DNA of 50,645 bases from a virus. Positions 1 through 28,806 of this stretch are shown here, piece by piece. The stretch is from IMG/VR virus record IMGVR_UViG_3300048591_000769, positions 1 to 50,645 of that record. One strand, given 5' to 3'. The notes beneath the pieces are model-generated. The model worked only from the letters and a program-made list of their open reading frames with translations. It did not search any database and had not been told where the DNA came from. The first letter of the stretch is position 1; each line of letters begins with the position of its first letter. The position numbers and the translations under genes were made by a program.

Positions 1-466
1 CGCAGTCGCCCTTCACCAGGCTATGCGCTCCAATGCAAGCCCCATCACCGACGCGCACGCCGGGCAGGAACGTGCAGCGCGCCCCGCCGAGCACCGCTCG
101 ACCGATGCGGATCGCCGCGCGCACCTTGCCGGGCTGGTAGCGGTCTGGGACGCAAGGCCCGAACATGCTCTCGCCGCTGTAGTCGTCCGACTCGGAGTGC
201 ATCACCGTGTAGACCCCGAAGCCGGAGTAGTCGCCAACCTCGATCCCGGCCTTTCCGTAGAGGACGCAGTAGGGCGCAAGATGGATGCGCCGGCCCAGCC
301 GCACCGAGCCGGTCAGGATGCAGCCGTCGTCGATGCGCGTGAAGTCGCCGATGCTCATCTCGCCGACGGCGTAGAACGCGACGCGACGCGACACCATGAC
401 GTCGCGGCCGACATCGATACCGAAGCCGCGCAGATCGTCCGCGGTGTAGTGGGTCGCGGGATTCAC
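1..466 (-). CDS. Hexapeptide-repeat acetyltransferase, copy A (cut by window edge)
   Basis: Left-handed beta-helix acyltransferase, expected to move an acetyl group from acetyl-CoA to a sugar. The 155 visible residues contain repeated hexapeptide turns (IGDF, IHLAPYC, IEVGDYSGFGV, IGDGACIGAHSLV). It aligns without gaps to residues 1-155 of the 189-residue copy at 50051-50620, so about 34 C-terminal residues lie beyond the window edge. The start is GTG, and the upstream methyltransferase stop overlaps it (GTGA), so the pair is translationally coupled. The acceptor is unknown; context points to a surface or virion glycan. Confidence 0.85.
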   Translation of the reverse strand, partial: MNPATHYTADDLRGFGIDVGRDVMVSRRVAFYAVGEMSIGDFTRIDDGCILTGSVRLGRRIHLAPYCVLYGKAGIEVGDYSGFGVYTVMHSESDDYSGESMFGPCVPDRYQPGKVRAAIRIGRAVLGGARCTFLPGVRVGDGACIGAHSLVKGDC

Positions 467-1044
467 GCGCGCACCCGGTAGATGCCCATCCACTCCGGGC
501 GCCGGCTGATCGGCTCGATGCACGTCGCCGGCTCGTCCGCCAAGTCGAACCGCTCCGCCATCCACGGCCCGACGGGATGCGTGCCAGGCCGGCACCGGTC
601 CATGTCGATGATCGGCGCCGGCAGGCGGATCGCGACGAGCTTGCCGGCGAACCCGACCGCCCACTCGAGCAGGCGCATGGGGTCGCGCACCTTGTGCAAC
701 ACCGAGAGCAGCAGCACGACGTCGTAGCTCGGCAGCAGCTCCGCGGCCAGGTCGAGGCATTCGACCTCACTGCGAAGGTCGGCCTGGAAGAACGCCATCG
801 GCCGGCCGGCGCACTGTCGCCGGGCTTCCTCGAGCTCGTAGAGCGGCAGCGTCACGCCATGCACCAAGGCCGCACCCCACGAGTCGACGCAGTGCCGGCC
901 GATGAGACCTTCGGCGCAGCCGATGTCGAGCACGGTCGCACCGGCGAACTGGTCCGCGACCGTCTCCAGCCCGAGCAACTGCTGCGCGAGCGTGCGGTCG
1001 CCGTCCTGCACGCCGTCGATCTTGAACCAGCCCTTGTGCATCAC
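463..1044 (-). CDS. Class I SAM-dependent methyltransferase, copy A
   Basis: Small Rossmann-fold methyltransferase of 193 residues. Motif I is visible as VLDIGCAEG near residue 39, followed by an acidic strand end around FFQADLRSE and a motif IV-like stretch YDVVLLLSVLHKV. The ATG overlaps the stop of the upstream membrane protein (ATGA), and the C-terminus IYRVRA is nearly identical to the methyltransferase tail visible at 50617-50645. The substrate is not evident. Its place beside glycosyltransferases and an acetyltransferase suggests methylation of a glycan. Confidence 0.8.
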   Translation of the reverse strand: MMHKGWFKIDGVQDGDRTLAQQLLGLETVADQFAGATVLDIGCAEGLIGRHCVDSWGAALVHGVTLPLYELEEARRQCAGRPMAFFQADLRSEVECLDLAAELLPSYDVVLLLSVLHKVRDPMRLLEWAVGFAGKLVAIRLPAPIIDMDRCRPGTHPVGPWMAERFDLADEPATCIEPISRRPEWMGIYRVRA

Positions 1045-1277
1045 GAGGTGGCCGAGATCGCCAGGAACACGGCAACCAGCGCGGAAATGGTCGCCGCGAA
1101 TACACGCCAGGAGGCGTCATCCGTCCACCGAATCGATGTGCACTGCGCTTGCGAAATGAACAGGCACACCAAGTCGAAGAACGCCACCGCAGCAGGCCCG
1201 AGCAAGATCGTGAAAGCGAGGACTGCTAGAAAGAACAACGCCGCATTCTTCAACACGTTACCAATGATTTCCAGCAC
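1041..1277 (-). CDS. Small two-helix membrane protein
   Basis: A 78-residue protein with two hydrophobic segments, about residues 12-42 and 57-76, joined by a short polar linker. I chose the GTG at 1277, preceded by a GAGGGACG ribosome-binding site, because a longer reading would run far into the upstream glycosyltransferase gene. It overlaps that gene by 28 bases and the methyltransferase by four. No family is recognised. A membrane partner for the adjacent glycan enzymes is one possibility; a holin-like role is unlikely given a better holin at 32307. Confidence 0.55.
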   Translation of the reverse strand: MLEIIGNVLKNAALFFLAVLAFTILLGPAAVAFFDLVCLFISQAQCTSIRWTDDASWRVFAATISALVAVFLAISATS

Positions 1278-1999
1278 GCCCCGTCCCTCATCTCGTCCAG
1301 CGTCCACTGATGCGCGAGCAGCGCCGCCGCCCACCGCTCCCGGCCGTCCGGGTAGAGCGGGCGCTCGATGCGGTTCAGGTCCGAGCACGCCATCGAGCTC
1401 GCCGCGCACAGCCCGGTCACGAACACCGGCACACCGGCCAGGAGCGCCTCGTTCGCCGCGGCGGACGTGTGCGCCACCAGCGCATGCGCGTCGCGCAGAT
1501 CCTCGGCCAACGGGCGACGCTCAGCCTTCTTGCGCACGCGAATCTCGCGCGACGTGTGCATCTTCAGGCGCCGCGTCACCCACTCGGCCCATGGCTCGTT
1601 GATCTGCTCGACGGTCGCCATGAACTCGTCCGACTGCGGGCAGACCACGATATGCCGACCACCGACGCGCCACGGCGCGATCGGCCGGGTGAACGGCGGA
1701 TACTGTCGCGCTGGGAATCTGTGCTGCTGCACCACGTTGACCCCGACCCGGAAGCGCGCCTCTCGGTCTGCGTCGAAGTACGCGTTGTCGAGGTAGTAGA
1801 CCCGCCGCCCCTCGGCCCGCGCCTGCCGCCACAGATGCAGCCAGCCGGGCCGCACGCCGTAGAACGCGACGTCTCCATGCTCCAATCGCGCGGCCGTCGT
1901 GCTCGCCATCCGCCCACCGCAGCCGGCGGCGAAGGCCTCCAGCACACGCCGGGACTTGGCCTTGTCAGGCTGCGCGTAGCAGACGACGGAACGGCTCAC
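1250..1999 (-). CDS. Phage glycosyltransferase-like protein (paralogue 1)
   Basis: A 249-residue protein related to capsule-type (KpsC/S-like) glycosyltransferases. The C-terminal half carries the sugar-nucleotide-site signature AHTSAAANEALLAGVPVFV, and the N-terminal half has a DVAFYGVRPG strand-turn. It is a paralogue of the next gene: both have the A-L-x-x-G-V-P-V core and a C-terminal Q-W-x-x-x-E-x-x-x-G motif. It overlaps both neighbours. The reaction is inferred from fold; donor and acceptor are unknown. Confidence 0.6.
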   Translation of the reverse strand: MSRSVVCYAQPDKAKSRRVLEAFAAGCGGRMASTTAARLEHGDVAFYGVRPGWLHLWRQARAEGRRVYYLDNAYFDADREARFRVGVNVVQQHRFPARQYPPFTRPIAPWRVGGRHIVVCPQSDEFMATVEQINEPWAEWVTRRLKMHTSREIRVRKKAERRPLAEDLRDAHALVAHTSAAANEALLAGVPVFVTGLCAASSMACSDLNRIERPLYPDGRERWAAALLAHQWTLDEMRDGACWKSLVTC

Positions 2000-2750
2000 C
2001 GCTCGCGATCTCCTCGCAATTCCACTGCGCCCACGCGAGCGCGTGCAACGCGGCCGCGCGTCTCTCGTCCATCTCGGACAGGCCGTACCACTCCTGCCCC
2101 GGCTCCATCGCCGCGCCCTTGCAGATCCACGCCGGCGCGTGACAGATCACCGGCACGCCTTCGATCAGCGCCCTCACCCCGACGCTGCTCGACCAGATCA
2201 CGACGCAGTGCGCGCCCCGCAGATCGTCCTCCAGCGGCACCGCGGGTCGCCCGTTGCCGGGATGCAACCGCAGGCGCACATCACGCCGCGTCGTCCGCCG
2301 CAGTTCGTCCGCCGTCCGCTCGCCCCAGCCCGCCGGCATCGCGAAGCCCCGCATCCCGAACGGCCGGTTCGGCGCCACCAGGATGTGCCCGCCGTCCGTC
2401 CGCCACGGCTTCAGTGCGATGCCCAACGATTCCCACCGTTCCGGCCCGCCTATGTGCCACTGCCCGCTGCCGTTGTGCCCGTGCACGGCCAGCGCGTAGT
2501 AGTCGCCGCCGTCGTGCCGCCCGCGCAGGTATCCGTTCTCTGCGACCAGCACCGTGCCGCCAGCTGCTTCGAACCGGTCCGCCAGCTGCTCGCGGTCGTG
2601 GTACCGGTTCCAGATCACCAGCACGTCGCCGTGTTTCACGGGAAACACCGGCGCCGCATCGTGGACTTCGTACCCTGCCGCCGCGAGCCCAGAAAGGAAC
2701 GCGTCGTGCCGGTAGTGCGGCTCCCTACGAATCAGCGACCAGGCGCGCAA
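1965..2750 (-). CDS. Phage glycosyltransferase-like protein (paralogue 2)
   Basis: A 261-residue protein of the family often found beside phage head genes. Features are GDVLVIWNRY near residue 41, VLVAENGYL near residue 67, a GHNGSGQWHIGGPERW block, and WSSSVGVRALIEGVPV near residue 190, which resembles the nucleotide-sugar site of KpsC/S-like enzymes. It ends with the same Q-W-x-x-E-E-I-A-S-G motif as its downstream paralogue. It overlaps both neighbours by about 25-35 bases. Biochemical function is inferred only. Confidence 0.6.
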   Translation of the reverse strand: MRAWSLIRREPHYRHDAFLSGLAAAGYEVHDAAPVFPVKHGDVLVIWNRYHDREQLADRFEAAGGTVLVAENGYLRGRHDGGDYYALAVHGHNGSGQWHIGGPERWESLGIALKPWRTDGGHILVAPNRPFGMRGFAMPAGWGERTADELRRTTRRDVRLRLHPGNGRPAVPLEDDLRGAHCVVIWSSSVGVRALIEGVPVICHAPAWICKGAAMEPGQEWYGLSEMDERRAAALHALAWAQWNCEEIASGEPFRRLLRAA

Positions 2751-3429
2751 GGTCCACCATCGGGAAGGCGTCGAGCGCGCTGCCCGGCGTCGCGTTCAGG
2801 ATGCGGATGCCGTTGAGCGCCGCCGTCGGCGCCATCCTGGCGAACTCCTGCCGGAAGTACAGGTACGTCCCTGGCTCGGTCCGCCACGGGTGTTCGCCGA
2901 ACCAGTGGTGCCGGAACTCCACGCCGTTCGTGCCGCGCACCTCGCCGGCCCGCATGTCATAGCCCACGAGGATGATGAGCCGGCAGCCGTAGAGGACGGC
3001 GACGTTGATCGCCTGATAGCCGCTGTTCTGTCCGGTGTAGATCCCGGTCGGGTCGATCGACAGCCGGCCCATGGTGCCGCCGACGAACGAGAGATTGCGG
3101 AGCACAGTCACGTCGCCGCCGGTGAACTTCCCGGCGCCGTTCTCGATACTGATCTTCCGGCCGCGGAACGCGCGGAACGCCGGCCGGTCGCGGTGCAGTT
3201 CCCACCAGCGGTGATCTGCGAAGTACAGCGCGTCTGCCCACGGCATGCACTGATAGTTGTCGTTGATCGCGATCACGCGGCAGCCGTCGCGGGCACGCCA
3301 CGCGCGGACCATTTCGAGTTGCTGCTCGGAAAGGCTCGGCCCCGTCGCCACGCAGACGCAGGGCAGGCCGACCCACTCGCGATCGATGCGGTGCTGCATG
3401 CCGGCCAGAGCTACCGCGAGGGTGTCCAT
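2725..3429 (-). CDS. DUF115/MptE-like protein
   Basis: A 234-residue protein with a Rossmann-like start, CVCVATGPSLSEQQ, near residue 26. Then come INDNYQCMPWADALYFAD and a C-terminal block YGCRLIILVGYDMR ending in an aromatic, His-rich stretch. The GPSL signature and overall order resemble MptE-like (DUF115) proteins, some of which are flagellin-modifying transferases. I chose the ATG at 3429, 19 bases inside the end of the collagen gene; a longer reading would overlap that gene completely. It lies in the glycan-modification cluster, and a second DUF115-like gene is at 44931. Confidence 0.55.
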   Translation of the reverse strand: MDTLAVALAGMQHRIDREWVGLPCVCVATGPSLSEQQLEMVRAWRARDGCRVIAINDNYQCMPWADALYFADHRWWELHRDRPAFRAFRGRKISIENGAGKFTGGDVTVLRNLSFVGGTMGRLSIDPTGIYTGQNSGYQAINVAVLYGCRLIILVGYDMRAGEVRGTNGVEFRHHWFGEHPWRTEPGTYLYFRQEFARMAPTAALNGIRILNATPGSALDAFPMVDLARLVADS

Positions 3430-4367
3430 CCGTCCTTCCCGTCGCGGCCGGGCTTGCCGTCCTTGCCCGGCTGGCCGTCCCTGCCGTTGTTGCCGCGCTT
3501 CACGGCGAGCTGCCACGCCTTCGTCGCCCCCGGGATGTCCGTGGTGCGGTCGGCCACGCAGTGCCACGTCGACCCGTCTCGGGTCACGCAGTCGCCGCGC
3601 TCGTATTCGGTCTCCTGCCGATAGACGCCGCGATGCAGCATCACCGGCGCCCGCAGCACGCCTTCGGAGGTCGTGCCGTCGGTGAGCGTGATGATCGCCG
3701 CGAGCGTGCGCTCGTCGCGCTGCTCCCAGCGGCATGACGCTACCCCGCAGACGATTACGTCGAAGCCGATCCCGTTCGTGCGCACGAGCCCTCCCGCGTG
3801 GCGCGCGTAGACGCCGGACGGATAGGATTTGTCCTCGTCGAGCATCGGCAGGATCGGGATCTCGACGGCGTCCCTGCCGTCACGCCCCGGCGCACCCGGC
3901 GCCCCGTCCTTGCCTCGCAGACTGTCCAGCCACTGCAGTTCGGTGCCCGCGTACCCGCGCTCGACCGCGAGCTCGTAGGCCGTCTTCCCGGGCGCTCCGT
4001 CCGCACCGGGTGGGCCCTGTTCTCCGCGCTCACCGGCGACTCCGGGCTCGCCTTTCTCTCCGCGCTCTCCGCGCTCGCCCTGGGCTCCATCCGCGCCCGG
4101 CGCTCCATCGGCGCCTTTCTCTCCGGCTGGGCCCGGATCCCCGCGATCGCCCTTTTCCCCTTTCTCGCCGCGCTCGCCCTGCGGTCCGCGCTCGCCCTGC
4201 GGTCCGCGCTCGCCCTGCGGTCCGCGCTCGCCCTGCGGCCCCGCGGGGATCGCCTTGATGCGTTCGTCGAGCGCCACCAGTTCCTTCGCCAAGTCCTCGG
4301 TGATCCGGTCGAACCATGCCTTGCAGGTGCAGAGCAGTTCGGCGGCAATAGCTTTCGCGTCCATCAA
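3411..4367 (-). CDS. Collagen-like tail fibre protein
   Basis: 318 residues. A short helical N-terminus (1-40) is followed by 28 Gly-X-Y triplets starting at residue 43, with GPQGER repeated four times. Next is an AYELAVERGYAGTELQWL module typical of phage fibres, more triplets, a globular region with a chitin-binding-like aromatic/Cys patch (YERGD...STWHCVAD), and seven final triplets. Collagen repeats form trimeric rods in phage fibres. It is coupled to the portal gene (ATGA) and precedes the glycosyltransferases, so it could be their acceptor; that is inference. Confidence 0.75.
   Translation of the reverse strand: MMDAKAIAAELLCTCKAWFDRITEDLAKELVALDERIKAIPAGPQGERGPQGERGPQGERGPQGERGEKGEKGDRGDPGPAGEKGADGAPGADGAQGERGERGEKGEPGVAGERGEQGPPGADGAPGKTAYELAVERGYAGTELQWLDSLRGKDGAPGAPGRDGRDAVEIPILPMLDEDKSYPSGVYARHAGGLVRTNGIGFDVIVCGVASCRWEQRDERTLAAIITLTDGTTSEGVLRAPVMLHRGVYRQETEYERGDCVTRDGSTWHCVADRTTDIPGATKAWQLAVKRGNNGRDGQPGKDGKPGRDGKDGWTPSR
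4171..4239 (-). repeat. 18-bp tandem repeat encoding GPQGER
   Basis: Three perfect and one partial copy of an 18-base unit (cgctcgccctgcggtccg on the plus strand) encode the successive GPQGER collagen triplets. Identity at synonymous positions implies recent slippage expansion rather than selection on protein alone. Confidence 0.85.
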
Positions 4368-8192: not shown

Positions 8193-10151
8193 CTACAGAA
8201 CGAAGAACTGATGCTCCGGCTTCGGCGCGGGCGGTACGCCCATCACGCCGATCGCCATGAAGAACGCGACTGCGTCGTCGATCTTGTCGGCGCTGCGCTT
8301 GCGGTCCGGCGCCATGTTCATGTTCTCGTCGTACCTGGGCACGACGTTGCCCGCGCACCAGTTGAGGACCGCATCACCGCCGTGTCGGAGGTTGCCGGCG
8401 AGGTACAGCCGCTCGGCTTCCTTCATCGCGGGGTTGAACGATCGCGGGCCCTGCCGGAACTCCTCGAGGATCGACTTCGCCTTGCCGTCCGGCATCGTTC
8501 GCTGCGGCAGTCGTGCGGTGAGCCGGTTGACCAGATCCCGCAGGTTCCACGAGTCGTAGCCGATGATCTGCGGCCGGAACCGCTGCACCAGGGCGACGAT
8601 CTCCTCCTCGATCACCGAATAGTCGAGGATGTGCCCCGGCAGCTGCGTGATGAGGCCGGACTGCACCCAGGCGGCATACGGCACGGTCTTGCGCTCGGTG
8701 CGCTGCGCCACCGCATCGGCCGGCACCCAACGTCTCCCCCAGGTGTAGACGATGCCGTCCGCATCGCGCCACACCAAGCGGAACGCCATGATGTCCGTCG
8801 TTGCCGCGCCATCCAGTCCCGCCCAGCATTCGAGCGACTCCATCCGATCGAGGTCGACCGGCCCCGCGCAAAGTTTCCACTTCGGGATGTGCAGCCAACT
8901 CTTCGCCGCGCTCGACTGACGGTTCAGTCTCTTGATCTTGAACTCGGCATGCTGGCCGGGCATCTGTTTCGCCTCGGCCGCTGCCTTGCGGATCTCGTTT
9001 CTGAGCTTCTCGTTGACCTCGATCAGCGGGTTCGCCTTCACCCACTTCGATTCGTCGAAGTCGTCATCCGGCGGCGCGTACCCTTGCTGCCCGGGCTCGC
9101 CTTCCTGCTCGTCAACCGCGTAGATCACGGCGAGGAAGTGGTCGGTATCCTCGGCCGGCAGCACACCCTGCAGCAGCTGGTGCGAGAAGGTGCGCAGTTC
9201 CGGCCACGGGCCCGGCGTCTCGTAGCCCTCGGTCGTCGTGTACAGCCAGAGCGGATTCCCGCGCGCGCCAGCAGCCGACTGCAGCACGTTCAGCAGGTCG
9301 TGCGTCTTGTGCGCGTGGATCTCGTCGAGCTCGACGTGCGACGGGTTCAGGCCGTCCTGCGTCGAGGCCTTGGCGTTGATCGGCTTGAACGACCCGCCGG
9401 CCTTCCAGTTCGCGATCGCGTGCGCGAAGGGCTCGAGCGCGAAGGCCTCCCGCAGATCCGGGGTCTTCTCGACCATCCGCTTGGCGATGTCAAACACGAC
9501 CCGCGCCTGCTGGCCGGTCGTCGCTGCCGTGATGACCTGCGGCCCTACCTCCTGCTCGCAGCAGAAGCAGTAGAGCAGGATCGCTGCCGCGAGCGTCGAC
9601 TTGGCGTTCTTCCTTGCCACCGCGAACAGCGCCCTGGTGAACCGCCGCGATCCGTCGCGCTTGCGAAACCCGAACAAGTTGACGACGAAGAAGACGTGCG
9701 ATGGATGCAGCACGATCGTCGGGGTCGCCCATTGCCCCTCGACGTGCGGCAGCTTCTCGATGAACTCGCAGGCATCCTGTGCGTGCCACCTGTCGAAGAC
9801 GAAGGGCGCTCCCCGCTTCCTATCGGCCCTCTTTAGGTCCGCGAGGAAGCGCCTCGCAGCCAGTTGCGCCCACTTTCCGTAATGCTTCCGACGCCGATCC
9901 GCCGCCGCTGCCTGCGCGTACTCGATCGCGATCGCGACGAAGTCACGCTGGCCGCTTGCCGTGCGAGCTGAACCGGTTCTTCCTTCCCCCTTCCGCCGTA
10001 CCTGCGGCGACGCGTCGGCGCGCGGCCGGCGTGAGCCCGAATTCTTGCCAGAGCGCCTTGAGGGCGTTGTCTTCGCTCGCGGTGACCTCGAATCCGGCTT
10101 TCGCCTTCTGGCGGAATCGCTGCCAGGCGTAGCAGAGCTGCTCGAGGGCAT
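8193..10151 (-). CDS. Terminase large subunit (start unresolved)
   Basis: HK97/P27-type packaging motor. The ATPase has the deviant Walker A ARKNAKSTLAAA and Walker B VELDEIHAHK. The RNase H-like nuclease shows GLDGAATTDIMAF, IIGYDSWNL and the final acidic motif DKIDDAVAFF. Family similarity begins only around base 9944 (DFVAIAIEYAQ), right after the small-terminase stop, but no ATG, GTG or TTG lies in frame there. The coordinates use an upstream ATG and so overlap the small terminase by about 200 bases. The GTGA at 9946 would be the natural start if one base were added. Confidence 0.9.
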   Translation of the reverse strand: MPSSSSATPGSDSARRRKPDSRSPRAKTTPSRRSGKNSGSRRPRADASPQVRRKGEGRTGSARTASGQRDFVAIAIEYAQAAAADRRRKHYGKWAQLAARRFLADLKRADRKRGAPFVFDRWHAQDACEFIEKLPHVEGQWATPTIVLHPSHVFFVVNLFGFRKRDGSRRFTRALFAVARKNAKSTLAAAILLYCFCCEQEVGPQVITAATTGQQARVVFDIAKRMVEKTPDLREAFALEPFAHAIANWKAGGSFKPINAKASTQDGLNPSHVELDEIHAHKTHDLLNVLQSAAGARGNPLWLYTTTEGYETPGPWPELRTFSHQLLQGVLPAEDTDHFLAVIYAVDEQEGEPGQQGYAPPDDDFDESKWVKANPLIEVNEKLRNEIRKAAAEAKQMPGQHAEFKIKRLNRQSSAAKSWLHIPKWKLCAGPVDLDRMESLECWAGLDGAATTDIMAFRLVWRDADGIVYTWGRRWVPADAVAQRTERKTVPYAAWVQSGLITQLPGHILDYSVIEEEIVALVQRFRPQIIGYDSWNLRDLVNRLTARLPQRTMPDGKAKSILEEFRQGPRSFNPAMKEAERLYLAGNLRHGGDAVLNWCAGNVVPRYDENMNMAPDRKRSADKIDDAVAFFMAIGVMGVPPAPKPEHQFFVL

Positions 10152-15933: not shown

Positions 15934-16224
15934 ATGAGACAGCCCCGCCAGCAGCCGCCGGAACCGCAGTACGACACCTTCCCCGTCATCTTCAGCCGCC
16001 GGCGCCTTGCCGACATGCACGAGCGCCGCCGTGCCGCCGGTCTCGGCCGGCTGACCGACACGCAGATGCTGGCCCTGCTCATCGAGGCCGGCATCGAGCA
16101 CGAGACCGAGGCGTACCGCGAACTGCGCGAGTGCCTGGAGACCGTCCCCGCCTCGATGCGCGGGCCGGAGTGGGATCGGGCGTCCGAGCATCTGGACAGC
16201 ATGCGCCGGCGGGGGGTGCTGTGA
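15934..16224 (+). CDS. First gene of the rightward early operon
   Basis: 96 residues with GGAGGGACC just before the ATG. It contains an Arg-rich helix (FSRRRLADMHERRRAAGLG) followed by TDTQMLALLIEAG. No family is recognised. Its position, first after the repressed rightward promoter, is that of lambda N, and the Arg-rich stretch is compatible with RNA binding. I saw no convincing boxB nearby, so an antiterminator role remains speculation. Confidence 0.5.
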   Translation: MRQPRQQPPEPQYDTFPVIFSRRRLADMHERRRAAGLGRLTDTQMLALLIEAGIEHETEAYRELRECLETVPASMRGPEWDRASEHLDSMRRRGVL

Positions 16225-17750
16225 TGCGCTCACCGATCGCGCGCTTCTGGCAGAACGCTCTCATCGTCGACAGCTTCGCCGGCGCCGGCGGTGCCTCGCT
16301 CGGGATCGAGTGGGCTCTCGGCCGGTCGCCCGATATCGCCATCAATCACGACGCCGAGGCGATCGCGGTGCACGCAGCGAATCACCCCGCGACGCGCCAC
16401 TATCGGGAGGACGTCTGGCGCGTAGATCCCGTCGAGGCGACACGCGGGAAACCGGTCGGGCTGATGTGGCTCTCGCCGGACTGCAAGCATTTCAGCAAGG
16501 CCAAGGGCGGGAAGCCGGTCGAGAAGCGCATCCGCGGGCTGGCCTGGGTCGCCGTGCATTGGGCGAAGGCGGTGCGCCCGCGGGTGATCGTACTGGAGAA
16601 CGTCGAGGAGTTCGCCGACTGGGGTCCGATCGGCGAGGACGGCCGGCCATGCCCGCGTCGGAAGGGCCTCACGTTCCGCAGCTTCGTCGGGCGACTGCGT
16701 GGTCTGGGCTACGACGTCGACTGGCAGGAGATGATCGCGGCGGATCATGGGGCACCGACCAGCCGCCGGCGCCTCTTCCTGGTCGCGCGCTGTGACGGCC
16801 TGCCGATTGTCTGGCCGGCACCGACGCACGGCGACGGCCTGCAGCCGTACCGCACGGCCGCGGAGTGCATCGACTGGTCGCTTCCCTGCCCTTCCATCTT
16901 CGAGCGCCCGCGACCGCTCGCCGACAACACGCTGCGGCGGATCGCCGCCGGGATCCAGCGGTTCGTGATCGATGCGGCCCAGCCCTTCATCGTACCGATG
17001 ACCCATACCGGCGGCGTGCGCGTGCATGCAATCGACGAGCCGCTGCGCACCGTGACCAGCGCACAGCGTGGGGAGTTCGCCGTCGCGACGCCGGTGCTCG
17101 CTTCGCTGCGCGGCACCGAGCGCTCGCACATGCACGGCGATGCGATCTCCGATCCGTTGCGCACGATCTCCGCCGGCGGCACGCATCACGGCCTGATCGT
17201 GCCGACGCTGGTGCAGACCGGATACGGCGAGCGCCCGGGGCAGGCCCCGCGCGTGCCGGGGCTCGGGAAGCCGCTCGGCACCTGCGTCGACGGGCAGAAG
17301 CACGCGCTCGTTGCCGCGTTCCTCGCCAAGCATTACGGGGGCGTGGTCGGCACCAGCATGCGCGCACCGATCGGCACAGTGACGGCGACCGACCATCATT
17401 CGCTCGTCTGCGCCCTGCTCGTGAAGTTCTACAGCGAGGGCGGGCAGTGGGCACGGTGCAGCGAGCCCATGCACACGATCCCCACGAAGGACCGCATGGG
17501 CCTCGTGACGATCGGCGTCGAGCAGTACCGCATTGTCGACATCGGCCTGCGCATGCTCCAGCCGCGCGAGCTCGCCAGAGCGCACGCGTTCCCGGACTCG
17601 TACATCCTCGACCGCGGAGCCTATGGCGAGGAGATGACGAAGACCACGCAGGTGCGGCTCGTGGGCAACAGCGTCGTGCCGCTCTGCGCCGAGGCGATCG
17701 TCCGCGCGAACGTGTGCGGCGACGTCGCCACCGTTCGGAGGATCGCGTGA
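16224..17750 (+). CDS. DNA cytosine-5 methyltransferase
   Basis: 508 residues. Motif I is DSFAGAGGASLGIEWALG. The catalytic loop is LSPDCKHFSKAKGG, with Cys after P-D rather than the usual P-P. The motif VI Glu lies in VLENVEEF, motif VIII is TSRRRLFLVA, and the C-terminal motif X region is VRLVGNSVVP. A long region of about 250 residues between VIII and IX holds the target-recognition domain. No restriction enzyme is adjacent, so it is an orphan enzyme, likely protecting phage DNA from host restriction. Confidence 0.92.
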   Translation: MRSPIARFWQNALIVDSFAGAGGASLGIEWALGRSPDIAINHDAEAIAVHAANHPATRHYREDVWRVDPVEATRGKPVGLMWLSPDCKHFSKAKGGKPVEKRIRGLAWVAVHWAKAVRPRVIVLENVEEFADWGPIGEDGRPCPRRKGLTFRSFVGRLRGLGYDVDWQEMIAADHGAPTSRRRLFLVARCDGLPIVWPAPTHGDGLQPYRTAAECIDWSLPCPSIFERPRPLADNTLRRIAAGIQRFVIDAAQPFIVPMTHTGGVRVHAIDEPLRTVTSAQRGEFAVATPVLASLRGTERSHMHGDAISDPLRTISAGGTHHGLIVPTLVQTGYGERPGQAPRVPGLGKPLGTCVDGQKHALVAAFLAKHYGGVVGTSMRAPIGTVTATDHHSLVCALLVKFYSEGGQWARCSEPMHTIPTKDRMGLVTIGVEQYRIVDIGLRMLQPRELARAHAFPDSYILDRGAYGEEMTKTTQVRLVGNSVVPLCAEAIVRANVCGDVATVRRIA

Positions 17751-17884
17751 TGCAGACCATCCGCCACTCTCGCGCCCTCGCGCGCTTCGCTGAGGCAGTA
17801 GAGCGTGCCACGCCGAACACGGCGGGCCTCTTCTGGGTGCCGTACTTCGCAGCCGTCGTCCTGCTTGCGTGGGTGTTGGCATGA
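17750..17884 (+). CDS. Tiny membrane protein
   Basis: 44 residues with GGAGG upstream, coupled to the methyltransferase stop. Residues 26-44 (LFWVPYFAAVVLLAWVLA) form one transmembrane helix running to the C-terminus. Function unknown. Confidence 0.5.
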   Translation: MQTIRHSRALARFAEAVERATPNTAGLFWVPYFAAVVLLAWVLA

Positions 17885-18153
17885 GCGACGAGACCATCCG
17901 GAAGGGCGATCTCGTGCAGGTCGTGCGGCCGATGCCGTGCTGCGGGCTGACGACGTACATCGGGTGGATCTTTACGGCGCACAGCGACGAGGTGCTGCGC
18001 GCTGCGGTGTGCGCTAACTGCCTGCGCTACAGGGCCGACCAGCGCGTGGTGCACAAGAGCGCGGGCACCGGCTACCCGCGCGAGATCCTGAAGAAGATTC
18101 CGCCCCTCACGGAGCCGGTGACCGTCAACACGGACAACGAGGTTCACGCATGA
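17881..18153 (+). CDS. Hypothetical protein with SH3-like start and four Cys
   Basis: 90 residues, ATGA-coupled on both sides. It begins with IRKGDLVQVVRPMPCCG, resembling small beta-barrel phage proteins, and has a second Cys pair (VCANCLRY), so a zinc site is possible. No function assigned. Confidence 0.55.
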   Translation: MSDETIRKGDLVQVVRPMPCCGLTTYIGWIFTAHSDEVLRAAVCANCLRYRADQRVVHKSAGTGYPREILKKIPPLTEPVTVNTDNEVHA

Positions 18154-18398
18154 GCACCATCGCCGAAGCCATCGCCGAAGCCATCGCCGATGCCCCTGTT
18201 TTCTTCGTCGTGATCGCCGCCCTCGTCGGCCTGATCTTCGGCGCGGTCCTCGGCATGTGGATCGCCGATCGAGAGTGGACCGAGCGCCGGCGCGAGCACG
18301 CGCCCGACTGGCACTCACGGATCGCGGGCCCGGGCCTCCCGACGGAGGAGGACGAAGCGGCGACCGAGGAAGACCTGCGGATACGGAGGTGGCTGTGA
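18150..18398 (+). CDS. Single-pass membrane protein
   Basis: 82 residues. The N-terminus contains the repeated peptide IAEAIAEA, encoded by a 12-base unit (CCATCGCCGAAG) tandemly repeated at 18157-18190. Residues 17-36 are a transmembrane helix, and the acidic C-terminal half should be cytoplasmic. Function unknown. Confidence 0.55.
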   Translation: MSTIAEAIAEAIADAPVFFVVIAALVGLIFGAVLGMWIADREWTERRREHAPDWHSRIAGPGLPTEEDEAATEEDLRIRRWL

Positions 18399-18748
18399 GC
18401 GAGATCGTCGATATTGCGTCGATCCACATCGGCGAGCGAGCGCGCAAGGACATGGGCGACATCGACGCGCTCGCCGCATCAATCAAGGTGCACGGCCTCA
18501 TTCACCCGCCAGCCGTGCAGCCTGACGGCACTCTCATTGCCGGGCAGCGCCGCATCCTCGCCTGCCAGCAGCTTGGCTGGACGCAGATCCCGGTGCGCGT
18601 GATCGCTGTCGAGGATCTGCTGTCCGCCGACGCGCAGACCTACGCCGAGATGCGCGACGAGGAGGCGACGGACGAGCACGCCCTCATGCTCGAGTGCGCG
18701 GCGGACCGGCGGGACGAGTGGGAGAACGAGAAGCGGGAGGCGGCATGA
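18395..18748 (+). CDS. ParB-like N-terminal domain protein
   Basis: 117 residues, GTG start overlapping the previous stop (GTGA). IDALAASIKVHGLIHPPAV and GTLIAGQRRILACQQLGW match the ParB/sulfiredoxin (ParB_N) fold, including the G-x-R-R nucleotide-binding box. It lacks the central helix-turn-helix of partition ParB proteins and no parA is present. It may act as a nuclease-like or CTP-binding regulator of early DNA metabolism rather than in partition. Confidence 0.75.
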   Translation: MSEIVDIASIHIGERARKDMGDIDALAASIKVHGLIHPPAVQPDGTLIAGQRRILACQQLGWTQIPVRVIAVEDLLSADAQTYAEMRDEEATDEHALMLECAADRRDEWENEKREAA

Positions 18749-18948
18749 GACCTGGCCGACTTCTCCGAGAGCAGATGCGCCCCGACGCGCCGGGCGCGGC
18801 AGACGAGCGCCGTCGCTACCGCGAAGCGGCGCACCAAGCGTACGCCGAGATGCTCGCGAAATATGCCCCGCTGAACGACACCAACGCGCTTGAGGCCATC
18901 GAATGGCAAGCGGCGCGCATCAAACAACTGACGCGGAGTCCGGCATGA
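18745..18948 (+). CDS. Hypothetical protein, 67 residues
   Basis: ATGA-coupled at both ends. Mostly helical and charged, with a basic N-terminus (RPGRLLREQMR) and a central AHQAYAEMLAKYAPL helix. No family recognised. Confidence 0.5.
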   Translation: MRPGRLLREQMRPDAPGAADERRRYREAAHQAYAEMLAKYAPLNDTNALEAIEWQAARIKQLTRSPA

Positions 18949-19154
18949 ACGCCCACACCCGCCTCGCGCTGGCCCGCGTGCAGGTAGCGGACGTCGTGCG
19001 CAGGCTGATCCCGAGGCTCAACGCAGCCGACCAGCATGCAGCCGTGGGCATCTTGCTGAACAGCGTCGCCGACGTCGCCGAGGACATCGCCCGCGAGCAG
19101 GAAGCCGCAGCACAGGCGCAGGCGCGCATTCACGATTTCGGGAGATCCGCATGA
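18945..19154 (+). CDS. Hypothetical helical protein, 69 residues
   Basis: ATGA-coupled at both ends. All-helical appearance with an acidic/Ala-rich C-terminal coiled-coil-like stretch (AEDIAREQEAAAQAQARI). No family recognised. Confidence 0.5.
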   Translation: MNAHTRLALARVQVADVVRRLIPRLNAADQHAAVGILLNSVADVAEDIAREQEAAAQAQARIHDFGRSA

Positions 19155-19363
19155 GCACCTACCGCACCCTGCGCGAGGCCAATGTCCTGCGCGACCACAG
19201 CAACAACACCCTCCGATTCAACCGCACCCGCGCCGACGCCGGCATGCACGGGCCGCTCGACGAGGAGTACGACGAGGAGTACGGCAACGGGGCCGGCATC
19301 CTGCTGTGGGGCGTCGTCGGGGCCGTGGTGCTGTGGATCTTCCTGCTGCTGGTGCTGGCATGA
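19151..19363 (+). CDS. Small tail-anchored membrane protein
   Basis: 70 residues. A polar N-terminus with an acidic Asp/Glu/Tyr patch is followed by a single C-terminal transmembrane helix (GILLWGVVGAVVLWIFLLLV). ATGA overlaps at both ends place it directly before the exonuclease gene. Function unknown. Confidence 0.55.
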   Translation: MSTYRTLREANVLRDHSNNTLRFNRTRADAGMHGPLDEEYDEEYGNGAGILLWGVVGAVVLWIFLLLVLA

Positions 19364-20328
19364 ACGACATCGCGGCTACCCTCGACGTCGGCCAGCTCGA
19401 CCGGCGCACCTACCTCGGATCGTCGGACGTGGCGGCCATCCTCGGGCTTTCGAAGTGGAAGACGCCGCTCGACGTGTACTTAGAGAAACTCGGCCAGGGC
19501 GTGCCGCCGGACGCCGCGAAGGAGAAGCTCTTCCGCCGGGGGAAGCGACTGGAGCCCGTCGTGCTCGACATGCTGGGCGAAGAATACGGCTACGAGATCA
19601 CCGCGCGCGGCGCGCGCTACCGCGACCCCGGGTATTCGTGGATGGCGGCCGAGATCGACGCGGAGACCGTGATCGACGGCGAGACCGTCAACATCGAGGT
19701 CAAGACCGTGCACCCGTTTGCCGCTGGCGAGTGGGGCGAGATGGAAACGGACGAGATCCCGATCCACTACGCCGCGCAGGCGATGTACGGGCTCATGATC
19801 ACCGGGCGGCAGCGCTGCATCTTCGCCGCGCTGTTCGGGGCCGACAACCTCGTGACCTACGACCTGCGGCGCGACGAGGAGACCATCGACGGAATCCGCG
19901 CGAAGGCAATCGCGTTCTGGCTGGATCACGTGCTGGCCAAGGTTCCGCCCGAGCCGATCGTGCTTGAGGATGCGCTGCGGCTCATGCGCCGCGACGTCAA
20001 CCTCATCGTCCAGGCAGACAAGGCACTCGGCGATCAGGTGTACGCCTACAAGGCGGCGAAGGCTGCGGAGAGGGTGGCGCAGGAGCGCATCAAGGAACTC
20101 CAGTTTCAGATTGCCGTGGCGTTGCTCGGGCCCGACGTGGCGAGCATGCCGAGCCGGAAGCCGAAGCATGTGATCGTGGTGGATGGCGAGCCGGCCTTGG
20201 CGCTGTCGTACCAAGAGCAGAACCGCATCGACAGCGAGGCCGTGCGCAGCCGGCACCCGGACGTCGCGGCGGAGTGCAGCAAGACGAGCAAGTTCTTCCG
20301 ATTCGACCTACCGAGGAGCAAGAGATGA
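19360..20328 (+). CDS. YqaJ-like 5'-3' DNA exonuclease
   Basis: 322 residues. The signature YLGSSDVAAILGLSKWKTP near residue 19, then RRGKRLEPVVLDM, an Asp in MAAEIDAETV, the catalytic E-V-K in VNIEVKTVH and the helix HYAAQAMYGLMITG are the YqaJ/lambda-exonuclease catalytic set. It would resect DNA ends to leave 3' single strands for the RecT partner encoded immediately downstream with an ATGA overlap. C-terminal residues 210-322 include a helical hairpin. Confidence 0.9.
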   Translation: MNDIAATLDVGQLDRRTYLGSSDVAAILGLSKWKTPLDVYLEKLGQGVPPDAAKEKLFRRGKRLEPVVLDMLGEEYGYEITARGARYRDPGYSWMAAEIDAETVIDGETVNIEVKTVHPFAAGEWGEMETDEIPIHYAAQAMYGLMITGRQRCIFAALFGADNLVTYDLRRDEETIDGIRAKAIAFWLDHVLAKVPPEPIVLEDALRLMRRDVNLIVQADKALGDQVYAYKAAKAAERVAQERIKELQFQIAVALLGPDVASMPSRKPKHVIVVDGEPALALSYQEQNRIDSEAVRSRHPDVAAECSKTSKFFRFDLPRSKR

Positions 20329-21431
20329 GCGCAGGACAGGCATTGAAGGCAGTCGCGACCGACCAGACGCCGACGAAGGCGACGCAGAATCCGGCCGTGG
20401 AGGCGCTGAACAAGGCGCTGGCCGGCATTGGGCAGGTGCTGCCGGCGCACATCACCAAGGAGCGCATGGCGAAGCTTTGCCTTGGCATGATGCGGACGAA
20501 CGCGAAACTCGCGCAGGCCGCGCGGCGCAATCCCGCCTCGTTCGTGAACTCGATCATGCACGCGAGCAAGCTCGGGCTCGAGCCCGGCATCGACGCGCAT
20601 CTCGTGCCATACGAGAACAAGCGGCAGGGCACCGTCGAGATCCAGTGCATCCCGGACTATCGCGGCCTGCTCAAACTCGCCCGCAACAGCGGCGACATCA
20701 CCAGCGTGAGCGTGCAGATCGTGTACGAGCACGACCATTTCGAGCTTTCCCTCGGATTGGTGGAGACCCTGACGCACAAGCCGAAGCTGGACGGCCCCCG
20801 CGGCGACCCGGTCCTTGTGTACGGCGTGGCCCGCTTCAAAGACGGCTCGCATCATGTCGAGTGGATGTCAGTCCAAGACATCAACACCATTCGCGACGGC
20901 AGCAGAGGCTACCAGAACGCGGTGCGCTACAAGTCCGACAACCCGTGGATTTCGTCTTGGGAGGAGATGGCACGCAAGACGCTGGTACGCCGCATGTGCA
21001 AGTACCTGCCGCGGTCGATCGAACTTCAGAACGCCGAGCGGCTGATCGATGCCGGCGACAAGGGCGTTCCCGCGCACTTCGAGGGCGAATTCGTGGTCGT
21101 CGAGGACGATGGCGGGGCCGGTGGCGAGGAGACGGGCGGCGGGCAGGTCGAGGACAAGACAAAGACCTCCGACGACCTCGACACCCGACAAGACGCAGAC
21201 CTGAAGGCCGGCATCGAGCGCCAGTCCGACGACGCGCCGACCGGCCCGAGCCTGCAGGACGCGCTGGCGCTGGTGGCGAAGGGCGACGACGCGGGGGCGC
21301 AGGATCTCGCGGGCCAGCTCGGGCCGGCGGCGAAGGCTGCCGTCGCCGAGGCCATCGAGAAGCGCAACGGGGCGCAGCAGCCGCAGCAGCGCTCCGCGCG
21401 CAGGCCGGCGCGGGACATCGCGGCCGAGTGA
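20325..21431 (+). CDS. recT: RecT single-strand annealing protein
   Basis: 368 residues. The RecT core spans about residues 30-260, with LCLGMMRTNAKLAQ, PASFVNSIMHASKLGLEPG, IQCIPDYRGLLKLARNSG and ISSWEEMARKTLVRRMCKY. The acidic and Ala-rich C-terminal tail (about 265-368) is typical of the family, where it interacts with exonuclease or SSB. With YqaJ it forms the phage homologous recombination pair. Confidence 0.93.
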   Translation: MSAGQALKAVATDQTPTKATQNPAVEALNKALAGIGQVLPAHITKERMAKLCLGMMRTNAKLAQAARRNPASFVNSIMHASKLGLEPGIDAHLVPYENKRQGTVEIQCIPDYRGLLKLARNSGDITSVSVQIVYEHDHFELSLGLVETLTHKPKLDGPRGDPVLVYGVARFKDGSHHVEWMSVQDINTIRDGSRGYQNAVRYKSDNPWISSWEEMARKTLVRRMCKYLPRSIELQNAERLIDAGDKGVPAHFEGEFVVVEDDGGAGGEETGGGQVEDKTKTSDDLDTRQDADLKAGIERQSDDAPTGPSLQDALALVAKGDDAGAQDLAGQLGPAAKAAVAEAIEKRNGAQQPQQRSARRPARDIAAE

Positions 21432-21467
21432 CGATTCCGCCCGCGAGGGCATGACAGGAGCAGTGCA

Positions 21468-21872
21468 ATGCGTGAACTAACGGAACACAAGGTCAACCCC
21501 GTGAACGACCGGCTGGCAATCAACGTCGTCGACGAGCCCGGCGCGGGCGGCGCGAACCATCTGTACATGGTCGAGGGGTTCGACTCCAGCACGAATCCGA
21601 GCGATCCGTTCGTGACGCGTCACGCGGAGCCGGCGAAGCACACCACGATCCTCTTCCAGAACGGCACGATCCCGGAAGCCGGAGTCAACGGCGTGACGCA
21701 CGAGGCGCTGCTGGCCATCGTCGCGGACCGGCTGCGCAGCTTCCAGGCCGGCCCGTTCTCGTGCAAAGAGAACGCCTGCGCGCTGACCCACATCGAAGAG
21801 GCGCTGCACTGGCTGCACTCGCGCACGCTCAAGCGCATGCAGCGCGGCGTCGAGGGAACGCACAAGACGTAA
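21468..21872 (+). CDS. Possible Tad1/Acb2-type cyclic-nucleotide sponge
   Basis: 134 residues, AGGAG upstream. From memory of the family, the segment TTILFQNGTIPEAGVNGVTH, the L-x-x-I-V-x-D-R-L helix, and the C-terminal hairpin ending LHSRTLKRMQRGVEGTH resemble phage proteins carrying the Acb2/Tad1 hairpin. Characterised members bind host immune signals (gcADPR in Thoeris, cyclic nucleotides in CBASS) and block defence. It is placed between recT and the SMC-like gene. Assignment rests on motif recall and could be a related family without this activity. Confidence 0.5.
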   Translation: MRELTEHKVNPVNDRLAINVVDEPGAGGANHLYMVEGFDSSTNPSDPFVTRHAEPAKHTTILFQNGTIPEAGVNGVTHEALLAIVADRLRSFQAGPFSCKENACALTHIEEALHWLHSRTLKRMQRGVEGTHKT

Positions 21873-21879
21873 CGACCAC

Positions 21880-21967
21880 GGGGCGGCGCGGCGACGTCAG
21901 GACGCAGTGACGTTAAACCGCCGCGGAAAGTCTCCGATGCGTGCGAGTGCTTCGCCGCCGCCGCCCC
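21880..21967 (+). promoter_or_regulatory. GC-rich leader hairpin before the SMC-like gene
   Basis: GGGGCGGCG (from 21880) and CGCCGCCGCCCC (ending 21967) can pair across about 60 bases. The same GGGGCGGC...GCCGCCCCACC element, in compact form, precedes genes at 24537 and 25294. There is no gene in this stretch. Confidence 0.4.
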
Positions 21968-21987
21968 ACCCACACCCAAGGAACGCC

Positions 21988-23748
21988 ATGCAGATCACCC
22001 GCATCCACGCCGAGCACTACCTCGGCCTCCGCCACGTCGACCTGACGCTGCGGCACCGAGTCACCCTCATCGCGGGCGCGAACGGCGCCGGCAAGTCGAG
22101 CCTCGCCGAGGCCCTGCGGCTCGCTCTGTGCGCGGAGTCGGTCCGCGTCGGGCTGAAGAAGGAATACCCCGCCCTCGTGCACAAGGGCGCGAAGGGCGCG
22201 AGCATCACCGTCGAGCGCGACGGCTGCGAGCCGGTCGTGGTGTCGATCACGGCGGCCGGGGCAGTGAAGCACGACGACAAGGTCTGGCAGGACAGCGACC
22301 CGGCCATGCCCTTCGTGCTCGACGCCGGGCGCTTCGCCCGCTGCGACCGCGACGCCCGCAGCAACCTGCTCTTCGACGTGATGGACGTCGCCACGGACAC
22401 CAAGGCCATCGAGCGTCGCCTGCTCGCCCGGGACTGCGCTCCGGTGCTGGTGACGCAGTTCGCCCCGATCCTGCGCGCTGGCTTCGAGCATGCCCACAAG
22501 GAAGCGACCAAGCGCGTCTCCGAAGCCAGGGGCGCGTGGAAGGCCGTCACCGGTGAGACCTACGGCGAGGTCAAGGCGAAGACGTGGAAGGCCGATCCGG
22601 GCGACTGGAAGACCGATGAAGCCGCGCAACTGCAGGCGCTAGACGCCACGATCGAGAAGCTCCGCGCGGATCATGCGGAGGCGCAGCGCCGGCTGGGTGC
22701 GGCGAGGTCGGAACATGACCGGTTCGCCGAGTATGGGAAGAAACTGGCGGCGATGAGGAACCAGGCGGCGGAGTTCGCAGTTCATCAGGCCGCAGTGAAC
22801 CGGGCCGAGGCAGTGCTCTCTGCGGCCAAGGGGGCGCTGGAGGCGGCGAGGCTGGCTGCTGGGACGGCTCCGCCCCCGAAACCGAAGACGTGCGCCTGCC
22901 CGGCGTGCGGCGTCGAGCTCGTCCCGCAGGCCGATGGCTCTCTCGTCGAGTACGCGGCGCCTGCGCCGGTGCCGCACGACCCGAAGGCGCTTGGGAAGAT
23001 CCCAGGTTTGAAGGCCACGGTCTCGGATGCCGAGCGCACGTTGGCCGCGCACGTCGCCCTGCGCAACGCGGCGGAGCGGGCCGCGCAGGACGTGCGCGCC
23101 ATGGAGGACAACATCCCCGCGGAGCCCAAGCAGCACCCGGACATCGTCGCGTCGAATGTCGGGATGATCGCGACCGAGCTCGAGACGAAGGTGGCACTCC
23201 AGCGCAAGCTGCGCGCCGCCTACGAGCGCTTCGACGCCGCGGACCGGAAGACCAAGGACGCCCGCCGGCACCACGCCGACGTGCTGGCATGGTCGAAGAT
23301 CGCCGAGGCCCTCGCCCCGGACGGAATCCCCGGCGAGCTGCTGGCCGAAGCCTTGGGGCCGATCAACGAGCGGCTCGCCCAGTCTGCCGCTGACGCAGGC
23401 TGGAAGCCGGTGCGCATCGGCGAGGACATGTCCATCACCGCGGACGGGCGGGAGTACCGCCTGCTGTCGGAGTCCGAGCGCTGGCGGGCGGACGTCATGA
23501 TCTGCGAGGCCATCGCGCACCTGTCCGAGCTTCGAATCATGGTGCTCGACCGGTTCGATGTGCTCGACATGCGCGGGCGCAGCGAGGCGCTCGGCTGGCT
23601 GGACGTGCTCGCCGACACGGGCGAGATTGACTCGGCCATCGTGCTCGGCACCCTCAAGGCGCTGCCGCCGTCCCTGCCCGAGACCATCGGCGCGCACTGG
23701 ATCGAGCGGGGCGTGATCGAGGCGCAGGACGAAGCGCAGGCAGCGTGA
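21988..23748 (+). CDS. SbcC/Rad50-like SMC ATPase
   Basis: 586 residues, AAGGA before the ATG. Walker A is GANGAGKSS near residue 32. Two coiled-coil arms (about 210-300 and 340-420) flank a zinc-hook CACPACG near residue 310. The C-terminal head has a Walker B-like strand LRIMVLDRFDVLD. This is the architecture of Rad50/SbcC-type DNA-end processing ATPases, shortened as in phages. No SbcD-like nuclease is adjacent, so YqaJ or a host nuclease may be its partner. Confidence 0.85.
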   Translation: MQITRIHAEHYLGLRHVDLTLRHRVTLIAGANGAGKSSLAEALRLALCAESVRVGLKKEYPALVHKGAKGASITVERDGCEPVVVSITAAGAVKHDDKVWQDSDPAMPFVLDAGRFARCDRDARSNLLFDVMDVATDTKAIERRLLARDCAPVLVTQFAPILRAGFEHAHKEATKRVSEARGAWKAVTGETYGEVKAKTWKADPGDWKTDEAAQLQALDATIEKLRADHAEAQRRLGAARSEHDRFAEYGKKLAAMRNQAAEFAVHQAAVNRAEAVLSAAKGALEAARLAAGTAPPPKPKTCACPACGVELVPQADGSLVEYAAPAPVPHDPKALGKIPGLKATVSDAERTLAAHVALRNAAERAAQDVRAMEDNIPAEPKQHPDIVASNVGMIATELETKVALQRKLRAAYERFDAADRKTKDARRHHADVLAWSKIAEALAPDGIPGELLAEALGPINERLAQSAADAGWKPVRIGEDMSITADGREYRLLSESERWRADVMICEAIAHLSELRIMVLDRFDVLDMRGRSEALGWLDVLADTGEIDSAIVLGTLKALPPSLPETIGAHWIERGVIEAQDEAQAA

Positions 23749-23819
23749 GCCCCACCATTCCAGACCTGTGGCCCTTCCGGCCGCAGGACATCACCACCGA
23801 CCGAAGGAGTCACCGCACC

Positions 23820-24485
23820 ATGTGGAGTCTCGCGAAAAAGCAGGCGCAGTTGCTGCACATGAACACCCGCACCGAGAAGGCCGGCGACGAGGACCGGCTC
23901 GCCTGCGATCTGAAGATCGGCATCACGGTCCCGAACACCTTCCTCGACGAGTTGTGCCTCGGCCTGCGCGCGGCGCTTTACGAGCGCCTGACGGACAAAG
24001 ACCTGCTCGACCAGGAGGACCACCGGCCGGTGCTGAGCTTCCCGCAGCTCGCCCCCATCGAGTGGGACCGCGACTGGACGGGCGTGCGGGTCACGCTGCA
24101 CTACGGCGTGCGCGACGACGGCGATGTCGTGCTCCACGGGGCGACGATCAACAAGCTCGCCCTCACGCTCAAGGACGGCGGGAGCGTCGAGGCTCGCTTC
24201 AGGATCCAGTGGCACCCCGACGTCGAGGAGCACCCGGAGTACATGGGCAAGCTCGCGATGATGCTGGAGGGCAAGGCGATCGAGATCACCGTCGAGGAGA
24301 TCAGGAGCGAGCCAGAGCCCGCGCAGCCCGATGTCATCGACGGCACGCAGGGGCCCGGCACGAGCAGCAACCCGGCGTTCGATGAAACGAACGAGGCCGA
24401 AGGCGAGACGGAAGCGGCCGAACGTGAAACGACGCAGGCACCGAAAGCGCGGCGCTCGCGCCGGGCTGCGGTCGAGGCGGAGTGA
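23820..24485 (+). CDS. Conserved protein of the recombination operon
   Basis: 221 residues from an ATG with AAGGAG upstream; a GTG at 23745 is possible but adds low-quality residues. It begins MWSLAKKQAQLLHMNTR, continues with a beta-rich core including VRVTLHYGVRDDGDVVLHGA, and ends in an acidic then basic tail. Proteins of this outline occur beside phage recT and SMC-like genes. No activity can be assigned; recombination accessory is inferred from context. Confidence 0.6.
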   Translation: MWSLAKKQAQLLHMNTRTEKAGDEDRLACDLKIGITVPNTFLDELCLGLRAALYERLTDKDLLDQEDHRPVLSFPQLAPIEWDRDWTGVRVTLHYGVRDDGDVVLHGATINKLALTLKDGGSVEARFRIQWHPDVEEHPEYMGKLAMMLEGKAIEITVEEIRSEPEPAQPDVIDGTQGPGTSSNPAFDETNEAEGETEAAERETTQAPKARRSRRAAVEAE

Positions 24486-24492
24486 TGCCCAC

Positions 24493-24519
24493 GGGGCGGC
24501 GCGGCGTGTATGCCGCCCC
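24493..24519 (+). promoter_or_regulatory. Leader hairpin, repeat element copy
   Basis: Stem GGGGCGGC (24493-24500) and GCCGCCCC (24512-24519) around an 11-base loop. It is followed by GAGAGGATGAG and the ATG at 24537. The whole block is repeated almost exactly at 25249. Confidence 0.6.
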
Positions 24520-24536
24520 ACCCATGAGAGGATGAG

Positions 24537-24791
24537 ATGACGAATTCACGCTTGATCGCAGCAGCACTGATGGCAGCAGCAGCAGGCATGCCGGGCGTTG
24601 GCGCGGAAGTGGATTGGGCAAGGATGTCCGAGCGGAAGCGTGCTGTGGAGCAGAGCGTGTACGGTGCGCGTCGAGACAGACGCCGGGGACGAGAAAACCC
24701 GGCCGGCACGAAGCTGTGGCGGCAGGCGATGGCCGGTGCCTGCACGCTGCGCGGGCGGGTGAGTAACGGCAATTGGGAGCCGCAGCGATGA
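24537..24791 (+). CDS. Hypothetical protein, 84 residues
   Basis: The N-terminus is an Ala-rich hydrophobic stretch (LIAAALMAAAAGMPGVGA) that could be a signal peptide. The remainder is strongly basic, with RRDRRRGRENPAG. GAGAGGATGAG precedes the ATG. No family is recognised. Confidence 0.5.
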   Translation: MTNSRLIAAALMAAAAGMPGVGAEVDWARMSERKRAVEQSVYGARRDRRRGRENPAGTKLWRQAMAGACTLRGRVSNGNWEPQR

Positions 24792-25242: not shown

Positions 25243-25248
25243 AGACCA

Positions 25249-25275
25249 GGGGCAGCGCGGCGTGGATGCCGCCCC
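25249..25275 (+). promoter_or_regulatory. Leader hairpin, repeat element copy
   Basis: Stem GGGGCAGC (25249-25256) and GCCGCCCC (25268-25275), one mismatch, 11-base loop. The following GAGAGGATGAGATGAC is identical to that at 24525-24540. Confidence 0.6.
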
Positions 25276-25293
25276 ACCACCTGAGAGGATGAG

Positions 25294-27343: not shown

Positions 27344-27345
27344 TC

Positions 27346-28780: not shown

Positions 28781-28806
28781 AGCATTTCACCGTCCAGGAG
28801 TACAGC

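Follow-up and report, generated by a model that had tools for sequence, protein, structure and literature searches.

Phage-encoded glycosylation of the virion has been reported for the mycobacteriophages Che8 and Rita, where glycans on virion proteins were demonstrated (Freeman et al. 2023, cited in PMC11256854). The locus described here, which we refer to as the cassette, resembles the Che8/Rita system in that its glycosyltransferases are encoded by the phage. It differs in position: in the mycobacteriophage system the genes for the putative glycosyltransferases are found close to the genome's 3′ end (as stated for Maravista), whereas the cassette lies among head–tail genes. The phages that carry the cassette are mostly phages of proteobacteria, and its likeness to the mycobacteriophage system may be one of kind rather than of descent.

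The genes of the cassette are abbreviated as D115 (an MptE-like/DUF115 putative glycosyltransferase), K1 and K2 (a KpsC-fold putative glycosyltransferase and its paralogue), MT (methyltransferase), AcT (acetyltransferase), GT-A and GT9 (glycosyltransferases) and FkbM (FkbM-type methyltransferase). The Caulobacter jumbo phages (CcrSC, CcrColossus, Bertelyvirus) share a D115-K1-K2-MT-GT9 run, located in the late region after the tail genes. Their genomes are large, and the run adjoins tail-fibre and lysis genes rather than the connectors found here. The GT9 of CcrColossus is annotated as a family 9 glycosyl transferase, while the other Caulobacter cassette genes are mostly annotated as hypothetical.

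Phages P1 and D3 each have a D115 family member among their late morphogenetic genes (pmgO and orf7, respectively), but neither has K1, K2 or GT9. P1 also encodes a weaker second member, pmgP (E=1e-9), a parallel to the second D115-like gene described below, and P1 pmgQ is labelled a glycosyltransferase in its record; D3 has a methyltransferase. Both pmgO and pmgP were non-essential in CRISPRi and in an earlier deletion survey, pmgO being dispensable for lytic growth (PMC10695390). An accessory role is therefore to be expected.

Serotype-converting gtr clusters also resemble the cassette, in consisting of phage-borne glycosyltransferases with a possible role in surface modification. The gtr clusters of temperate phages encode membrane flippase and transferase proteins, which are expressed in lysogens. 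Neither the GtrA membrane flippase family nor the GtrC membrane glycosyltransferase family was found in the DNA analysed here.

Gene order and the ends of the contig

The DNA analysed, referred to below as the window, is the linear virus record IMGVR_UViG_3300048591_000769 over its whole length of 50,645 bases (positions 1 to 50,645). Its virion operon runs leftward in the order terminase, fused protease/capsid, portal, collagen-like protein and then the cassette, the genes of which are all on the minus strand. The collagen-like virion protein (3411–4364, minus strand; Pfam Collagen E=3.5e-22) is encoded directly upstream of D115, and has a possible CBM5/12-like domain near its C-terminus (Pfam CBM_5_12 E=0.001, below cut-off). 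D115 (2725–3429; phrog_4603 E=9e-36; Pfam MptE-like E=5e-6, below the gathering score) is the anchor gene, followed by K1 (1965–2750), K2 (1250–1999), a small membrane protein of 78 residues with hydrophobic helices (1041–1277; hydropathy maximum 2.45), MT, which is a SAM-dependent class I methyltransferase (463–1041; Pfam Methyltransf_23 E=1e-6), and AcT, a left-handed β-helix (hexapeptide) acetyltransferase that is cut by the end of the contig (1–466; Pfam Hexapep E=6e-12). All six junctions from the collagen gene to AcT are overlaps, of 19, 26, 35, 28, 1 and 4 nucleotides in turn. The left end thus has the content proposed in the initial annotation: KpsC/S-like paralogues, a DUF115-like gene, a small membrane protein, a methyltransferase and an acetyltransferase within a leftward operon.

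At the right end of the window, AcT occurs again (50051–50645, with the open reading frame at 50620–50051 preceded by the last 29 nucleotides of MT), at the same locus as bases 1–491. It is followed by GT-A, a GT8-like glycosyltransferase (49461–50054; DxD motif SLDVDV), GT9, which is heptosyltransferase-like (48692–49453; Pfam GT9 E=1e-4, score 22.1 against a cut-off of 22), and FkbM (48054–48695; Pfam E=3e-18), the last enzyme of the run. The successive junctions are a 4-nucleotide overlap, a 7-nucleotide gap and a 4-nucleotide overlap. The three enzyme types had also been named in advance, and Pfam and PDB profile matches agree with them, that for GT-A being weak (Glyco_transf_8 E=0.025).

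Downstream of FkbM are the head–tail connector genes, followed by an intrinsic-terminator-like site (44532–44549, minus strand; a 7-pair stem and then a T run), which is a candidate for the end of the operon segment containing the cassette, although matches of this kind are also expected by chance. The connector genes include a probable second D115-like gene, D115b (44931–45494, minus strand), between the gp10-like and tail-terminator genes. The gene directly after FkbM (47317–48029, minus strand) looks split over two frames, its N-terminal portion being read in the open reading frame 48029–47457 and its C-terminal portion in another frame that ends at 47317; there may be a frameshift near 47805, or an assembly error.

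The two ends of the window form a perfect end-to-end dovetail, in which bases 1–491 align with bases 50155–50645 at 82% identity, and both ends fall inside one acetyltransferase gene. The left and right copies of AcT are 88% identical in protein and 82% in DNA, and 62 of the 86 base differences between them are in third positions, so most are synonymous. The closest relative, the contig L039, has the unbroken single run capsid, portal, collagen-like protein, D115, K1, K2, MT, AcT, GT-A, GT9 and FkbM. It contains one MT-AcT pair, which bridges exactly the point at which the ends of the window meet, and its bases 9505–9895 are matched by the left and right ends alike. GT-A is 64% identical in L039; the 78-residue membrane protein is missing there, and K2 runs directly into MT.

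The initial annotation described two separate enzyme sets, the right one including a second methyltransferase/acetyltransferase pair. The dovetail and the single run in L039 indicate that this second pair, of which the methyltransferase amounts to 29 nucleotides, is most likely a contig seam, and that the cassette is most likely one run of about 6 kb with eight or nine enzymes, split by the contig ends. The simplest reading is that diverged strains contributed to the assembly of one circularly permuted genome, the ends of which overlap in the acetyltransferase gene; the 82% identity of the overlapping ends suggests a near-complete genome drawn from more than one strain. We consider it unlikely, though a real contender, that two tandem MT-AcT pairs are truly present and that the contig lacks the segment between them. 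The copies do differ in 18% of their bases, mostly by synonymous changes, so that both are under selection; however, no tandem pair was seen among the relatives examined, the single pair in L039 joins exactly the two ends, and contig ends that dovetail within one gene are the product expected when a circularly permuted genome is assembled from mixed strains.

Families for sugar-nucleotide synthesis, which the initial annotation had reported as lacking, were indeed not found among the 49 other proteins of the window. DUF5131 and MazG families occur among the non-cassette proteins. The plus-strand region at 16224–30728 encodes a C5-cytosine methylase (16224–17750), YqaJ and RecT recombination genes, an SbcC-like gene and an integrase (29721–30728). 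The phage is probably temperate, because this opposite-strand region carries an integrase together with recombination genes. The methylase, and the fact that phages with glycosylated DNA encode glycosyltransferases, could suggest that the cassette acts on phage DNA or nucleotides rather than on protein or surface glycans. We regard this as very improbable, given that the methylase lies in the early, opposite-strand region, that no base hydroxymethylase family was found in the window, and that the fold relatives of the cassette enzymes act on saccharide acceptors.

Occurrence of the gene set in other phages

Well over a hundred further phage contigs carry the core of the cassette, and virion genes nearly always adjoin it there. 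A scan of viral contigs seeded with GT9 found relatives encoded by 238 contigs, and one seeded with K1 matched 137, where some contigs are near-duplicates, so that all such figures count contigs and not independent events. D115 and/or K genes are present on 72 of the best 80 of the 238 GT9 contigs, among which D115-K-K-MT-GT9-FkbM is the most frequent order. For K1, the best 79 of the 137 contigs (L039 being additional) include 68 with D115 and 67 with virion genes. The orientation of the partner genes is almost invariant, with 235 on the same strand and 3 on the opposite strand near GT9 seeds (GT9 itself not counted), and 269 and 0 respectively near K1 seeds (K1 itself counted). When bacterial genomes were scanned using D115, virion genes were found at 29/29 loci, a connector gene lay within 2.5 kb of D115 in 26/29, and a K gene was also present in 13/29.

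Whether GT9, K1 or D115 serves as the seed, the partners are therefore the same and share its strand, next to capsid, portal or connector genes, and the proposed check of whether the gene set travels together in other phages gives a positive answer. Scans of viral contigs with AcT and GT-A matched only L039, which makes these two genes rare additions to a common core. Genes found near D115 at other loci encode methyltransferases, GT2 and GT8 glycosyltransferases, radical-SAM proteins and a sulfotransferase. In two contigs (L012 and L013) the D115 gene is located between capsid and portal, and is not near connectors. No description of the cassette was found among open-licence papers.

Predicted properties of the enzymes

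The structure of D115 was modelled with a pLDDT of 89, and gives a weak match to MptE (TM 0.5). Its homologues include P1 PmgO and D3 orf7, and the GPS motif, the SG..A...G...I.L.G.D region and a His motif are conserved. The PDB profile match to CstII has an E value of just 0.045. D115 thus weakly resembles both MptE/DUF115 and GT42, and the same two matches give weak support to the PHROG label of “alpha-2,3-sialyltransferase”, which we do not adopt. D115b, which is absent from the initial annotation, was tentatively assigned using hhalign (E=2.4e-4, probability 44%), and the annotated phage collection gave no match to it; its homologue in the contig L143 overlaps the end of K1. Two D115 members are also present in P1 (pmgO/pmgP) and in Tetraselmis virus S20.

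K1 is predicted to have a GT-B fold of the KpsC type. Its model has a pLDDT of 90, and the top Foldseek matches are to KpsC, WbbB and KrkA, with E values from 2e-8 (KpsC) to 1e-4. K2 was assigned as a paralogue of K1 by alignment, and matches the Pfam DUF6716 putative glycosyltransferase family with E=0.003, below cut-off. K1 shares with the retaining β-Kdo transferases KpsC and WbbB the fold, the E of the ENG motif, the HP motif and the S-EAL-G-PV region, but K1 and K2 are shorter, at about 250–260 residues compared with more than 300, and differ in the catalytic nucleophile. The nucleophile of KpsC is D160, which is changed to N or C in the structures 8fuw and 8fux; the corresponding residue is Gly132 in K1 and Phe in K2. 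An Asp in this column occurs in 0/111 of the aligned K-like homologues, whereas the E or D of ENG is present in 111/111 and the H of HP in 82/111. The HP motif is missing in K2.

K1 is thus not a standard retaining β-Kdo transferase. Inverting GT-B sialyltransferases have a D/E-D/E-G motif plus an HP motif, and manage without a nucleophile of the KpsC kind. Our best guess is accordingly that K1 may be an inverting CMP-sugar transferase, though K1 and K2 could be inactive, given the missing nucleophile. It may be that D115, K1 and K2 have glycosyltransferase folds but mainly serve structure or assembly rather than catalysis, and that only the methyltransferases and the acetyltransferase act as enzymes; the missing nucleophile, the loss of the HP motif in K2 and the label “putative morphogenetic” of the P1 relatives would suit this reading. 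We think this improbable: the other candidate active-site residues are conserved as described above, and the company of these genes is enzymatic, both in the cassette (GT9, GT-A, FkbM, MT and AcT) and in the neighboring GT2, GT8 and sulfotransferase genes at other loci. Two other contigs, L041 and L046, encode K1-related proteins that do have an Asp at the nucleophile position, and a canonical KpsC-type subfamily may therefore occur in phages too.

GT9 contains the C-terminal nucleotide-binding region of its family, and its family profile matches heptosyltransferases in the PDB, including heptosyltransferase II (E=7e-7). FkbM, MT and AcT are decorating enzymes, as judged by family. Apart from the small membrane protein, the cassette products lack any strong transmembrane segment, as would suit enzymes with a substrate in the cytoplasm.

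Possible substrates of the cassette

The enzyme genes form a contiguous, overlapping run inside the virion operon, between the portal/collagen-like genes and the head–tail connector genes. We think it reasonably probable that these genes make up one cassette in the late operon, whose tailoring enzymes work in the cytoplasm, glycosylating a virion protein and then methylating and acetylating the sugar. The enzymes would be co-translated or co-expressed late with the virion proteins. D115, K1 (with or without K2), GT-A and GT9 would assemble a short glycan on one of the head, connector or tail proteins, drawing on sugar nucleotides of the host because genes for their synthesis are lacking in the window; the donor could be a CMP-ulosonate such as CMP-Kdo for K1, and ADP-heptose-like for GT9. 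MT and FkbM would then methylate the glycan, and AcT would acetylate it. The benefit is likely to be accessory, for example protection of the particle or altered attachment.

What speaks for modification of the virion is the conserved synteny with virion genes, which is strongly supported at the level of gene order by three independent seeds: glycosyltransferases are co-encoded with virion genes across phages, as would be expected of a virion-glycosylation system. Against it, the neighbors vary, being mostly connectors but tail genes in the Caulobacter phages, and the genes could be linked simply because all of them are expressed late. The usual substrates of GT9 and KpsC-type enzymes are lipid-linked or belong to the LPS core, and the reaction takes place on the cytoplasmic side of the inner membrane, which suits a role in host glycan modification equally well.

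Such a role would consist of late remodelling of the host surface. The enzymes would modify LPS-core or capsule precursors where the inner membrane faces the cytoplasm, which would spare progeny re-adsorption to debris or infected cells, or would let lysogens exclude related phages. The match of GT9 to LPS heptosyltransferases and of the K1 fold to Kdo transferases is in keeping with this, as is the finding that in the bacterial genome set the K and GT9 partners are restricted to alphaproteobacterial (LPS-bearing) hosts. However, D115 without these partners is also found in contigs assigned by binning to Chloroflexota, Actinomycetales and Omnitrophota (an assignment that may be wrong); no GtrA/B/C-like membrane enzyme, flippase or polymerase was found in the window; and the cassette is in the late virion operon rather than with the lysogenic functions around the integrase. 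On balance we judge host-surface remodelling to be rather unlikely, though it is the strongest competitor of virion modification.

For a virion target, the initial annotation suggested the collagen-like fibre encoded just upstream. Among loci that have portal and connector genes as well, a collagen-like gene occurs at 28/54 of those with D115 and 15/29 of those with K genes, and none is next to the cassette in D3 or in the Caulobacter jumbo phages. About half of the comparable loci lack it, and the collagen-like protein is thus not supported as a general target. The broader suggestion of a phage glycan-modification pathway in the late operon is strongly supported by the conserved synteny.

More tentatively, and with rather less than even confidence, we propose that D115, K1 and K2 are the basis of a widespread system, of which P1 PmgO and D3 Orf7 would be simpler members. 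It would place a methylated, acetylated glycan of nonulosonate or heptose type directly on virion head or connector proteins, by means of inverting enzymes that would form a new branch of the KpsC fold, one in which the retaining nucleophile is absent. If true, this would provide a role for a family whose members in well-studied phages are so far annotated only as hypothetical, as “sialyltransferase” or, for P1 PmgO, as “putative morphogenetic”, and would point to glycan coats being common among bacterial viruses other than mycobacteriophages. The finding marks a conserved group of KpsC-fold proteins in which the known catalytic residue is missing, and it is probable that many phages attach sugars to their own particles or, at a late stage of infection, to the surface of the host.
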